A DNA stretch of 64,000 nucleotides from positions 1,178,001 through 1,242,000 of the forward strand of contig NZ_CP073754.1 in assembly GCF_018734325.1 (NCBI RefSeq), written 5' to 3'. The notes below the pieces were generated by a model that saw nothing but the letters and a program-made list of their open reading frames with translations, was not told the origin of the DNA and made no database searches. The DNA comes from Methylomonas paludis. GTDB taxonomy: Bacteria > Pseudomonadota > Gammaproteobacteria > Methylococcales > Methylomonadaceae. Shown in pieces: positions 1,826 through 41,861 of this stretch (within the stretch, counting starts at the first letter, position 1; each line of letters begins with the position of its first letter). The position numbers and the translations under genes were made by a program.

Positions 1826-3043
1826 ATGATAGGGTACGCACAGCATTATATCCGCCACCGGCTAAACCAGCTGTCACGCTGGAGTTTACCGGTGGTGTGT
1901 GCTGCCGCCTGCGCACTGTCCGGCTGTTTTTCGCCTATGGCGCTGGATCATGTGGCGCTGGCCTATAATGAGTCGATATCCGATGTGGTCTCCAAGCAGT
2001 TACTGCTGAATATTGCCAGAGCCAGCCTCAATCAGCCCATCTATTTTTCCGGCATCTCCAATATCGCCGCCACCCTTAATTTTCAGGCCAATGCCGGAGC
2101 CACCCCGGCCCTGGCCGGCAATAGCGGCGGTTTGTTAATGCCGCTATTCGGCGGCAGCGTTTCGGAAAATCCCACCATCAGCATCGTGCCCATGCAAGGT
2201 GAAGAATTTACCCAGCGCATGCTCACCCCCTTATCGGAACAGAAATTGGCCCTGTTGTTGCGGCAAAACATCGATGTCAATCTGTTGCTGCGTCTGATAA
2301 CCCTGGAGTTCCGTACCCAAAACAAAGACGGGGTTTACCACAACCGGCCCCGCAATGAGCAGGATTACGCTACCTTCCGGCGCATTGCCCTGCATCTGGC
2401 CTCAATTCAGAACCGCGATCAGCTCTATGCCGAACCACTGATTTTTGAACAGCACTGGACCTTACCCCAGGCTGGGCTGGATGCCGCGGCTTTTCCAGCC
2501 CTGGAAGCCAAATATGAAATCAGCGCTGCGGCCGAAGCCGGTGCCTATAAACTCACTAAACAGGTTATCGGCCGCACCGTATTAACCAATTATGATCCTT
2601 CGGTGTTGAGTAATGTCGAACGGGTGCAACTCAATGAAGAAGCCGAAAAAAATGCGCCCAACGAAATCCTGGTGGATATTCGTGCCGATTTTCCCGGTGG
2701 TGAATATCCGCTGCATGGCAAATTCCGATTGCGCAGTTTCAGCAATATCATGTATTTCATCGGTCGCACCATCACCACCGAACCGGAAATAGCTGTCGCC
2801 GCCGATCCCAGAACCCCGCAGGCAACCGAAAACCCGGTTTCGGTAATTGCCATCGCCCAATCCGATAACGCCCCGGCCAGCCCCGATCTGGCAGTGCAAT
2901 ACCGGGATAAATATTATGCCGTACAACAAGCCAGCAATCCGGCCTGGAATCAAACTGCCTTCCGGGTGCTGGCGCAAATTTTCCAGATGACCATGGCCGA
3001 ACTACCCAGAGTCGGTGCCCCCACTATTACCATTGCTAAATAG
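1826..3043 (+). CDS. Putative outer-membrane lipoprotein of unknown function
   Basis: The 405-residue product starts with a positively charged stretch and a hydrophobic segment ending in a lipobox (LSGC, Cys at about residue 34), so it should be lipidated and exported. The mature part begins with a conserved-looking segment about losing or binding partners at the membrane (SKQLLLNIARASLNQPIYFSGIS region) and has no motif I can assign to an enzyme. It follows the coiled-coil protein by 85 bases and may share its job in envelope organisation, but a hairpin separates the two. Function is unknown. Confidence 0.7.
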   Translation: MIGYAQHYIRHRLNQLSRWSLPVVCAAACALSGCFSPMALDHVALAYNESISDVVSKQLLLNIARASLNQPIYFSGISNIAATLNFQANAGATPALAGNSGGLLMPLFGGSVSENPTISIVPMQGEEFTQRMLTPLSEQKLALLLRQNIDVNLLLRLITLEFRTQNKDGVYHNRPRNEQDYATFRRIALHLASIQNRDQLYAEPLIFEQHWTLPQAGLDAAAFPALEAKYEISAAAEAGAYKLTKQVIGRTVLTNYDPSVLSNVERVQLNEEAEKNAPNEILVDIRADFPGGEYPLHGKFRLRSFSNIMYFIGRTITTEPEIAVAADPRTPQATENPVSVIAIAQSDNAPASPDLAVQYRDKYYAVQQASNPAWNQTAFRVLAQIFQMTMAELPRVGAPTITIAK

Positions 3044-3081
3044 GGTATATGCATGGCTGCTAAAGTCCTGCCCATGTGTTA

Positions 3082-3222
3082 CTGACGTTCGATGAATACC
3101 AAAAACTCACTGGTGGCCGTGGCTGCAAAATTGCCGATTTATTAGCCTTGCCGGGTAGTGAAGATATTGAACTTGAGATACCGGCTATGCGGGAATTGGT
3201 AAAGCCGGCAGACTTTAATTAA
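3082..3222 (+). pseudogene. C-terminal relic of a Phd/YefM-type antitoxin
   Basis: Reading from 3082 gives LTFDEYQKLTG followed by an IADLLALPGSEDIELEIP segment and a stop at 3220-3222. This is the C-terminal half of a Phd-family antitoxin. The same frame extends upstream only as far as a few codons (PAHVLLTF) before a stop, so the DNA-binding N-terminus is missing. No PIN toxin follows; a REP-like hairpin lies just downstream. It is a degraded toxin-antitoxin relic. Confidence 0.6.
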
Positions 3223-3272
3223 AACAAGGGCTTAAATTGATAGGAAGTGCCGACGCAAGGAGGCGCATCTGT

Positions 3273-3309
3273 CGCGATTGATGCGCTTCACTCCGTTCAG
3301 CACATCCTA
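3273..3309 (-). repeat. REP-like hairpin (GATGCGCATC family)
   Basis: Read on the minus strand this is TAGGATGTGCTGAACG followed by GAGTGAAGCGCATCAATCGCG. Relatives occur at 6736, 39117, 49292, 54459 and 60558. Confidence 0.6.
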
Positions 3310-3403
3310 TATTTTAAGACCAAAAAAGGGGTAAATTTTAGCCACTCTGACCCTATTCGAGATTAGCCTGTGTGGAATCCTCTTCCCCCACAGGCCAGGA
3401 CTA

Positions 3404-4795
3404 TCAAGCCTGTAACGCCTTCAACAAAGCCTGCAAGCGGTCATTGGCATCACCAAACAGCATCCGGGTGTTTTCATGTACGAATAATGGATTACCCACC
3501 CCGGCGTAACCAGACGCCATACTGCGTTTCAGCACTATCGTGGTTGCGCCTTTCCAGCATTCCAGCACCGGCATGCCGGCAATTGGGCTGTTAGGGTCAT
3601 CCAACGCTGATGGGTTGACGATGTCGTTAGCGCCAATCACGATAGACACATCCACATCCGGAAAGTCTTCGTTGATTTCTTCCATTTCAAACACAATATC
3701 GTAAGGTACTTTGGCTTCCGCCAGCAGTACGTTCATGTGTCCCGGCATGCGTCCGGCCACTGGATGAATGGCAAACCGCACTTTCTTGCCCTGCGAGGTC
3801 AACAGCTTGGTGATTTCATTGACAGTATGCTGAGCTTGCGCCACCGCCATGCCGTAGCCGGGGATGATCACAATGTTTTTAGATTCTTTCAGCAACTGCG
3901 CGGTTTCCTCGGCATCAATCGGAAACACCTCGCCTTCCACTTCTGCCGCTGCCGCACCGCTGGCGGTACCAAAGCCCCCGGCAATCACGCTGAGAAAATG
4001 CCGGTTCATCGCCCGGCACATGATGTAACTCAGAATCGCACCGCTACTGCCCACCAGGGCGCCGGTGACGATCAGCAAGTCGTTATTCAGCATAAACCCG
4101 GTCGCTGCCGCGGCCCAACCCGAATAACTGTTCAGCATGGATACCACCACCGGCATATCCGCACCGCCGATCGCCATTACCATGTGTACCCCAAACACCA
4201 AAGCAATGCCGGTCATTACCAGTAACGGAATCAGCGCTGCGCCGGTTTCACTGCCGACCAGAAACAAATGGCCAAAAAAGAAAGTCAGGACAAACAAACT
4301 CAGATTCAGCCAGTGCCGGGCCGGCAGCAACACCGGTTTACCGGTGATTTTGCCGCACAGCTTGCCCCAGGCAATCACCGAGCCGGAGCAGGTTACCGCC
4401 CCGATAAAAATACCGATATAAATTTCCAGCTCATGAATGGTTTTTTCCACACCCACCAGGGTAGAGGTAGTGTCCATGAAATTGGCATAACCCACCAGCA
4501 CCGCCGCCAGACCCACCAAACTGTGCATGATGGCGACCAGTTCCGGCATTTGGGTCATTTCCACCTTGGCTGCCGCCCGCGCCCCGATACTGCCGCCGAT
4601 CAGCAAAGCCACCAGCAAAATGGCGTAACTATGCACATTATTGCCCAACACCGTAGCGATAATGGCGATACTCATCCCGGCCATGCCGAAATAATTGCCG
4701 CGCCGCGAAGTATCCTGTTTGCTTAAACCGCTCAGGCTGAGGATGAAGAGAATGGAAGCAGCAATGTAAGACATTGTGACTAAACCGTGTGACAT
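3404..4795 (-). CDS. pntB: NAD(P) transhydrogenase subunit beta
   Basis: PntB is the beta subunit of the proton-translocating nicotinamide nucleotide transhydrogenase, which uses the proton gradient to reduce NADP+ with NADH in the cytoplasmic membrane. The 463-residue length matches the usual 460-465. About nine membrane segments fill the first 260 residues, followed by the NADP(H)-binding dIII domain with [13 protein letters not shown] and the [12 protein letters not shown] and SMASGYAGV motifs near the C-terminus. An AGGGGA box precedes the start at 4795. It lies 9 bases after pntA in one operon. In a methanotroph it probably supplies NADPH for biosynthesis. Confidence 0.96.
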
Positions 4796-40041: not shown

Positions 40042-40278
40042 CATGCCAGAAATTAGTCGTTTTCTTGGGATTGTGATTTACATGTATTTTAATGAGCATA
40101 ACCCACCGCATTTTCATGCGGAATACAATGAATTTAGGGCTTATTGAAGGCAAGTTGCCGGCAAATGTGTTTAGCTTGGTGGTGGAATGGGCGCAAGAGC
40201 ATCAAGACGATTTATTGGAAAATTGGCTTTCTATCAAAACGAGCGGTCATTTTCATAGAATTAAACCTTTGGTTTAGG
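40042..40278 (+). pseudogene. DUF4160 gene with internal deletion
   Basis: The first frame begins MPEISRFLGIVIYMYFNEHN then PPHFHAEYNEF, typical of DUF4160. A second frame carries LGLIEGKLPANVFSLVVEWA with QEHQDDLLENW to a stop at 40276. About 20 bases that would link the halves are missing. DUF4160 genes usually precede DUF2442 genes, as here; such pairs are thought to be toxin-antitoxin-like. Confidence 0.72.
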
Positions 40279-40288
40279 AGTTGAAAAT

Positions 40289-40868
40289 ATGTTATCTGTC
40301 GAATCAGCCCGCTATGCGGGCAATTACGCTATCGCTGAAAATCTTGGAAGCGGAACGTAAGTGGAGCGAAGATTTTTAGTCCCCGATAGGCGTAGCGCCG
40401 GGCGGGTTTTCGAAGCGAAGCGGAGAAAACCTGCAAGGCATCGCGAAACGCCGTCAAGTCACTTGGAGCCGAAGTTCCGATCCCCTTGTTGGGTCGGAAC
40501 GAGGTGAGGAGGACGAATCGGGGCCGCCGGAGGCATTAGCGGTCGCGTAATTTTTGCCGCTTGTTGGGGCTGGGATGCCCCTAAACAAGCTTTCGCAAAA
40601 ATAGCGACTCACTGATGAGTTGATTTTTAATAATGGTCAGCAAGGGGTGGCTGATCTTAAAGAGACTATTTTTAACGATCCAAGGCCAATTTTTGGTCAG
40701 TTAAAGGATTTGGGGCGTTTTAAAAATTTTAAGGTCGTGCATAGCGCTATTGTTTGGCCTAATGATCTTGATTTAGCCTGCGAGTATTTGTTTTATTTGG
40801 CTTTTAAAGAACGCCCGGAATTTCAAAAACAATTTAAGTCATGGGGGTATTTGGATGGTGTTGTTTGA
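40289..40868 (+). pseudogene. DUF2442 gene interrupted by a structured insertion
   Basis: Codons from ATG 40289 to 40336 encode MLSVESARYAGNYAIA. Codons from 40614 to 40868 encode DELIFNNGQQGVADLKETIF and continue through VVHSAIVWPNDLDLACEYL to the stop. Joining 40336 to 40614 restores an uninterrupted 100-residue DUF2442 protein with the family's FxxG...VDL and VWPNGxD-like motifs. A GGAG box precedes the start, 10 bases after the DUF4160 stop. The inactivating 277-bp insertion is described separately. Confidence 0.85.
40338..40614 (+). ncRNA. Candidate HEARO/omega-RNA-type mobile structured element
   Basis: This 277-bp segment has no ORF of note and interrupts the DUF2442 gene without target duplication (boundary uncertain by one G). 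Pairings read by eye are AAAATCTT 40338-40345 with 40369-40376; GGCG-TAG-CGCC 40389-40399; GGTTTTC 40405-40411 with 40425-40431; GTTCCGA/CCC 40474-40484 with GGGTCGGAAC 40491-40500; TTTTTGC 40551-40557 with 40595-40601, enclosing GCTTGTTGGGGC 40559-40570 with 40577-40590. The element ends directly before ATGA (40615-40618). Insertion ahead of ATGA/GTGA without duplication is the reported habit of HEARO RNAs, the guide RNAs of IscB. No IscB gene is present. Covariance support was not tested. Confidence 0.55.
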
Positions 40869-41214: not shown

Positions 41215-41466
41215 ATGCACCGAACCCAAATATACTTGCAAGATGCGGTTTACGAACAGTTAAAACATAAATCCAAAGTAATAGGGGTTAGTATTTCCGA
41301 ATTAATTCGTAGAGCTGTAGAAAAAGACCTTAATAAGCCAAGCAGCAATGAAGCAAGAGCTTTTTTTGATGCACTGTCACCCTTGCAAAGCTATGCCTCA
41401 ACTGAGCCTGAACAGTATGTTGACGACATTCGTAACCGCAGCAGAATTTTAAACCTAGAAGAATAA
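41215..41466 (+). CDS. Ribbon-helix-helix antitoxin
   Basis: The 83-residue protein begins HRTQIYLQDAVYEQLKHKSK, a beta strand followed by the helices of the RHH fold (IGVSISELIRRAVEKDL). The C-terminal part (residues ~50-83, acidic) should bind and block the toxin. AGGA lies upstream of the ATG. The last base of its TAA is the A of the VapC start, so translation is coupled. It probably represses its own promoter through the palindrome at 41175-41198. Confidence 0.85.
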   Translation: MHRTQIYLQDAVYEQLKHKSKVIGVSISELIRRAVEKDLNKPSSNEARAFFDALSPLQSYASTEPEQYVDDIRNRSRILNLEE

Positions 41467-41861
41467 TGCCAGCGCCCAATCGTTTATTATTGGATACCGA
41501 TATCGTTATTCATCTCCTGAAGAAGCGTAGCGATGTATTGGAATTCTTTATCGACATGCATGAACAAGGCACACAATTTTACCTTTCGCCTATTGTGATT
41601 GCGGAAATTTATGTCGGCGCATTTAAAAAAGAGCACACTGAAATCGAAGCCTTCTTTAATCTGTGCATCCGATTGACATTAGACGCAAAAACCGCAAAGC
41701 AGGCGGGATTGTTTGCTGCCCAATACCGTAAAGCTTACCAAGGTATTTCATTAGAAGATTATTTGTTAGCGGCAACCGCTGAGCAATTGAATTGTCCGCT
41801 ATGGACGCTCAATAAAAAACATTACCCAATGAACGAGATTGTTTTGTTTGAGGGCTTGTAG
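41466..41861 (+). CDS. vapC: VapC-type PIN-domain toxin
   Basis: The 131-residue protein has the PIN signature: LLLDTDIVIHLL with the first Asp, SPIVIAEIYVGA with Glu, the SLEDYLLAATA segment with Glu-Asp, and a final LWTLNKKHYP. These residues bind the metal for cleavage of RNA, usually tRNA. Length is normal for VapC. The pair appears intact, unlike most toxin-antitoxin genes around it. Confidence 0.9.
   Translation: MPAPNRLLLDTDIVIHLLKKRSDVLEFFIDMHEQGTQFYLSPIVIAEIYVGAFKKEHTEIEAFFNLCIRLTLDAKTAKQAGLFAAQYRKAYQGISLEDYLLAATAEQLNCPLWTLNKKHYPMNEIVLFEGL

Follow-up and report, generated by a model that had tools for sequence, protein, structure and literature searches.

The enzymes of the IS200/IS605 insertion sequences use a guided tetranucleotide. 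HUH transposases and type IA topoisomerases both generate a 5'-phosphotyrosine together with a free 3'-OH. The REP transposase TnpA-REP cleaves C↓T (the arrow marks the cut), which places the cytosine at position -1 (PMC8266576). Type IA topoisomerases recognize a cytosine and cut single-stranded DNA 4 nt downstream of it, the in vivo cleavage motif of E. coli topoisomerase I (EcTopoI) being TCNTT↓A (PMC9352719), and a cytosine at -4 has been described as required by the bacterial enzymes of this type (PMC9960139). Among structured repeats, the mobile/repeat sequence candidates (MRSC motifs), described in a study of noncoding RNAs in 50 bacterial genomes, are suspected of being selfish and perhaps structured as DNA (PMC11109978). 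Here, we describe a folded insert that shares traits with several of these systems. It lies in a 64,000-nucleotide stretch of the Methylomonas paludis chromosome, hereafter the window, where it interrupts a gene of the DUF2442 family. The gene and the insert are located as follows:

40289 to 40868, + strand: DUF2442 host gene (PF10387), interrupted by the element; the frame is intact without 40333-40615, and the joined ORF has 106 codons from stop to stop.
40333 to 40615, + strand: complete mobile element, delimited by 23 copies, by the empty sites of two other copies and by empty sister units of an array.

The joined DUF2442 protein matches PF10387 in Pfam (E = 2.5e-9), and the empty gene reads ...GNYAIELIFNNG... 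in frame. An earlier note on this DNA had recognized the insert and the frame restored on its removal, both of which are real, but had set the borders at 40338-40614 (277 bp) and read the restored sequence as GNYAIADELIFNNG. The full insert measures 283 bp, with the termini CGCTGAAAATC...GACTCACTGA; both cuts keep the frame because the two lengths differ by 6. The DUF4160 gene directly upstream is also broken, being split over two frames (window 40043-40277, + strand), and both halves match PF13711. Further along, at 41215-41861 on the + strand, a pair of small ORFs of 83 and 131 amino acids resembles a VapBC-type pair of antitoxin and PIN-domain protein.

A search of the host genome with the insert revealed 23 full-length, essentially identical copies and two weak partial matches, so that the element is not solitary, contrary to the earlier note. 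The left end CGCTGAAAATC and the right end GACTCACTGA are common to all 23 copies, while the flanks outside them are unrelated. When the genome was searched with joined flanks, one insertion site proved to have 13 exact empty paralogues and a second site to have 1, all identical across the junction. In addition, one unit of a tandem REP-like array is filled (CACTTTGT-element-GATATAACGG), whereas in its sister units CACTTTGT runs directly into GATATAACGG. The 283-bp borders follow from the shared ends of the 23 copies and from the empty sites and array units that match through the junction. These exact empty sites, from the same genome, also demonstrate that no base is duplicated or lost at insertion, and the absence of a target duplication claimed earlier was thus borne out. 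Adequate flanks were available for 112 sites. At 31 of them, the element interrupts a long reading frame that becomes continuous on its removal, the orientation being sense in 12 cases and antisense in 19. A sense bias in coding regions, of about 7:1 in the host genome, is gone over all sites (12:19), and a replichore bias was likewise set aside, as GC skew, sampled along the chromosome, gave no information and the relatives are mixed.

No ORF was found inside the element, and no terminal inverted repeats were found at the element ends seen directly. A MITE of a DDE transposon was rejected on the lack of inverted termini and on the exact empty sites without duplication. A group I or group II intron was rejected as well: the copies occur in both gene orientations, there is no Rfam match, and none of the ends typical of these introns is present. 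The insert is therefore a discrete, precise, multi-copy mobile element devoid of ORFs. The earlier description of a mobile, structured, noncoding element, inserted precisely in the style of single-strand transposition, holds; second copies of the segment exist, and it was not found as normal coding sequence.

What does not hold is the identity first given to it. The element had been read as a HEARO or omega-RNA of IscB, directing a nuclease in trans; a TnpB-type guide RNA would be a variant of this reading. It is indeed structured, mobile, present in many copies and free of target duplication, and in the one copy of the window it lies 5' of ATGA. However, a covariance search of the whole genome with RF02033 gave no match at E <= 1, nor was any other Rfam match found for the element. 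The ATGA to the right, proposed as the TAM, is not conserved among copies: the right flank carries <=0.11 bits, and no conserved base was found in the right flanks of 76-112 copies, so that the ATGA of the window copy is a matter of chance. As for the protein partner, the host genome has no RRXRR (IscB-type) protein. The idea of a guide and a TAM is thus unsupported. Among the loci fetched from relatives, no element stands beside an RRXRR match; these matches are mostly proteins of 94-131 amino acids, the exceptions being two of full length that come from a different family of the order. We consider this reading extremely unlikely. In the small proteins of Methylomonas relatives (L077-L104, about 94-131 amino acids, 1-4 per genome), the match is limited to the first ~50 residues, at the N terminus, of the RRXRR domain of IscB (PLMP-like), and several of these proteins adjoin a long ORF resembling a conjugation ATPase, with no adjacent IscB.

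The top strand of the element folds far better than shuffled sequence (RNA fold z = -4.4), in agreement with the strongly folded, ORF-less insert described before. In the consensus of 23 diverged full-length copies, hairpins at the 5' end and at the 3' terminus enclose a multibranched core, which a long-range helix closes. In the window, these parts correspond to the following:

40334 to 40380, + strand: 5' terminal hairpin (left end), in which GCUGAAAAUCUU pairs with AAGAUUUUUAGU; seen in the minimum-energy fold and kept, with conserved G.U pairs, in the 23-sequence consensus.
40377 to 40534, + strand: conserved structured core (model R1) of 158 positions and 46 pairs, from a 57-sequence alignment.
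40542 to 40608, + strand: 3' terminal hairpin (right end), GTCGC...GCGAC; seen in the fold, the consensus and distant members.

The long-range helix of the core pairs CCCCGAT (40381-40387) with ATCGGGG (40517-40523). Over 57 sequences spanning the class, standard pairs fill 95.5% of the pair cells, and both-sided changes occur in 36 of the 46 pairs; the covariation score of 0.442 compares with 0.150 for shuffled alignments (reached in 0/500) and with <=0.06 for slid controls. The 3' hairpin carries the apex GGGG-CTGGGATG-CCCC, kept in modified form in most families seen, and its consensus pairs (233-238 with 310-315) include both-sided changes. Since several pair positions of the core are mostly G.U, the folded strand is the top strand, either as RNA or as single-stranded DNA. 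No sigma-70-type promoter match was found in or beside the element. We also observed that the subfamilies L062, L064, L065 and L053 have their first ~200 bases in common, while their 3' terminal hairpins are unrelated, which suggests a modular exchange of the right end among them.

The distribution of the family was surveyed with a covariance model of the 158-position core. Within the order, 149 of the 311 genomes searched were positive, distributed over 35 of 50 genera; across the class, a sample of 369 genomes contained 21 positives; in a phylum-wide sample the host genome was the sole positive. The family seems confined to some Gammaproteobacteria. Carriers include plasmids of Methylobacter sp. 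YRD-M1 and Methylomonas spp. Viral contigs of IMG/VR also hold the element (L353, 7240-7510; L355, 4370-4630). The core of these copies shows compensatory changes (GGTGT...ACACC), their 5' hairpin is of another kind, and a terminator-like hairpin comes after the element. Neither near nor distant members matched Rfam at the gathering score, the only matches nearby being to tRNA, riboswitches and group II introns. The element is a non-autonomous member of a structured-nucleic-acid family outside Rfam. Apart from group II intron insertions, no ORF-bearing, autonomous version was found. Two candidates for an autonomous parent were discarded: the ORF of G032 (L061) belongs to a group II intron that lies inside the element, and that of G034 (L155) likewise, the intron being degenerate. 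The L061 copy, at 2034-4345 of plasmid CP157006.1 of Methylomonas sp. AM2-LC, lies within a spacer of a CRISPR-like array that looks to be of type I-F, with 28-nt repeats and a 32-nt spacer (27 + 5 nt), and its intron encodes a 436-amino-acid RT. Overall, group II introns lie in or near element copies in five genomes (L061, L155, L245/L274, L256 and L260), at different positions, and the element may be a favored landing pad for them.

To define where the element is cut and joined, the flanks of 127 distinct sites from many genomes were compared at the left junction, and the element's own 3' end was considered alongside. The corresponding tetranucleotides of the window copy are as follows:

40329 to 40332, + strand: left cleavage tetranucleotide CTAT, in the flank, with C at -4, as in 122/127 flanks and in 22/23 left flanks of the host genome.
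40612 to 40615, + strand: right cleavage tetranucleotide CTGA, at the 3' end of the element, with C at -4 of the right junction; C-N-N-N in the subfamilies with mapped ends.

Against a background of 21%, the frequency of C at -4 has a probability of 2e-76, with 5 of the 127 sites breaking the rule. At -5, T or A is favored and C depleted (5/127); position -3 is nearly free, and T is favored at -2 and -1. The cytosine belongs to the target, because it is present in the empty paralogues. The rule extends to distant genomes (G039, 6/6; G228; G340, 3/3; and G344) and to other families of the order and class, in which the elements start differently (GAAGGAGCAC, CGACGAGAC). At the right end, the terminal tetranucleotide has the form C-N-N-N in every subfamily with mapped ends (CTGA, CCGA, CCGG, CTTG, CCTG and CCAG). 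Thus, one and the same rule, C-N-N-N↓, governs the target and the element's own 3' end, and from the C(-4) rule we infer single-strand cleavage on the folded strand. We also considered whether the right hairpin might pair through its 5' foot with the terminal tetranucleotide, in the manner of a guide; such pairing fits the host genome (TTAG with CTGA) and fails in the other subfamilies.

The presence of a rule at both ends, resembling single-stranded DNA cleavage, speaks against the idea of a bacterial SINE, in which a transcript of the element would be retrotransposed by a reverse transcriptase such as that of a group II intron. The many conserved G.U pairs of the top strand are RNA-like, and several copies have group II introns inside or near them. 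Nevertheless, these introns sit at differing positions, as ordinary insertions do, and RVT_1 was not found in G340, G333 and G638, so that we hold retrotransposition to be very unlikely.

A single-strand mechanism brings the Y1 HUH transposases into consideration, either RAYT/TnpA-REP or the TnpA of IS200/IS605, acting in trans under an unusual guide rule limited to the C; the element would then be a large relative of REP or IS200-type ends. Several of its traits are IS200/IS605-like, namely the lack of target duplication, the hairpins near both ends, a cleavage tetranucleotide that lies in the flank on the left and within the element on the right, and an end chemistry of 5'-phosphotyrosine. 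Moreover, one of the approximately six Y1 ORFs of the host genome adjoins an element copy. However, that copy merely lies within the GTAG-type REP array of the Y1 gene (at L072, 1100-2700, a RAYT gene stands among GTAG-type REP units repeated in tandem, and one of these units holds an element copy). In G344, the Y1 gene that abuts an element copy proved to be split by it; in G209, an IS200 element is nested in an element copy; and no autonomous copy was found. The cutting rule also differs, as TnpA-REP has its C at -1 rather than -4 (PMC8266576). The element shows no fixed guided tetra- or pentanucleotide target, and C at -4 alone is strongly conserved, whereas IS200/IS605 use the full guided tetranucleotide. 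Finally, six element-bearing genomes (G340, G333, G402, G542, G638 and G639) gave no Y1 (PF01797) match. Among them, the 1.4-Mb genome G340 carries, at separate loci, two copies that are identical over 247 bp, and yet it gave neither a Y1 nor an RVT_1 match, although this is a multi-contig assembly and the mobilizer could have resided on a plasmid or phage that was lost or not assembled. Taken together, mobilization by a Y1 enzyme appears unlikely.

Where recent copies occur in a genome that has no known candidate, a transient partner could also have been at work, namely a dedicated, unrecognized recombinase, for instance plasmid- or phage-borne, which would happen to share the C(-4) rule. The occurrence of the element on plasmids and in viral contigs would suit such a partner. 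Against it, 20 distant neighborhoods have no neighbor protein in common except group II intron RTs, and versions of the element with an ORF come down to group II intron insertions. We regard this explanation as doubtful, if somewhat better placed than the Y1 enzymes.

The cutting rule itself may point to an enzyme of the host. To the left of the cut, the insertion motif favors the same base as EcTopoI at each specified position. The preference of EcTopoI for A at +1, which shows just faintly at the insertion sites, counts against this enzyme. TopA turned up in each of the 16 genomes tested, and in the host genome it is the sole type IA topoisomerase detected. Because the two kinds of enzyme share the same end chemistry, a peel-and-paste reaction carried out by a topoisomerase through an element circle is chemically possible. 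According to this proposal, the host TopA would excise and insert the top strand as single-stranded DNA, in an IS200/IS605-like peel-and-paste in which topoisomerase I would replace the transposase. It would cut twice at CNNN↓, each cut leaving a 3'-OH and a 5'-phosphotyrosine, and crosswise rejoining of the two cuts would free an element circle with the junction ...CTGA↓CGCTG.... A further cut would then open the circle, which would be joined into a new CNNN↓ site, and the folded core might present both ends, recruit the enzyme, or do both. Judging by the motif, with its one strong base, we give about even weight to host topoisomerase I being the enzyme for the single-strand excision and insertion of the element. 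We put forward a little more tentatively, somewhat short of even, the wider proposal that this gene-less family may move without a transposase, its fold (as single-stranded DNA or RNA) recruiting topoisomerase I, whose cleavage and rejoining would accomplish excision and insertion.

Several observations temper the topoisomerase proposal. There is no consistent strand bias relative to genes (12 sense, 19 antisense), which counts against it. Furthermore, the relatives G004, G016 and G022 have TopA and yet lack the element; as TopA is universal and the element apparently restricted, something else must limit the element, and TopA alone is insufficient. To our knowledge, TopA is not known for coordinated excision and insertion, nor as an enzyme of transposition, and no earlier report of topoisomerase-driven transposition of such a kind was found in the open-licence literature. 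The mechanism, rather than the family itself, is what we propose as the categorically new part. If true, a universal housekeeping enzyme would double as the transposase of a gene-less parasite, a new route of DNA mobility that would account for the survival of small gene-less repeats in genomes without a detectable mobilizer. Whichever enzyme acts, any explanation has to accommodate a family that lies outside Rfam and occurs in 149 of the 311 genomes searched within the order, as well as its single-base insertion rule.

As described above, the element can be compared with several known systems. With HEARO/IscB omega-RNA elements (RF02033), it shares a structured, mobile nature and precise insertion, and it differs in having no covariance match, no conserved right flank and no IscB. 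The Coxiella QMITEs differ from it by their terminal inverted repeats and short direct repeats. Like the MRSC motifs, it is structured, multi-copy and without consistent gene association, and the family could also be filed with MRSC-like motifs; unlike here, the cited text on those 250 candidates gives no cutting rule or enzyme (PMC11109978). The REP, BIME and REPIN sequences with their RAYTs are likewise gene-less, dispersed, structured repeats of Gammaproteobacteria, whereas the element has no GTAG-tagged short palindrome, measures 283 bp with a multibranched core, inserts precisely into genes with C at -4 instead of C↓T, and has the ends CGCTG... and ...CNNN. IS200/IS605 elements and their non-autonomous derivatives agree with it in the missing target duplication, in the subterminal hairpins and in a left cleavage site in the flank with the right one at the element end; in contrast to them, it has no transposase gene, a single specified base and a large conserved core, and it occurs in genomes without a Y1 match. 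The cleavage sites of TopA resemble its insertion sites in the C at -4, the T or A at -5 and the T at -2 and -1; this motif links the enzyme to the element, and single-strand cleavage with a 5'-phosphotyrosine, as made by TopA, is what we propose for the element.
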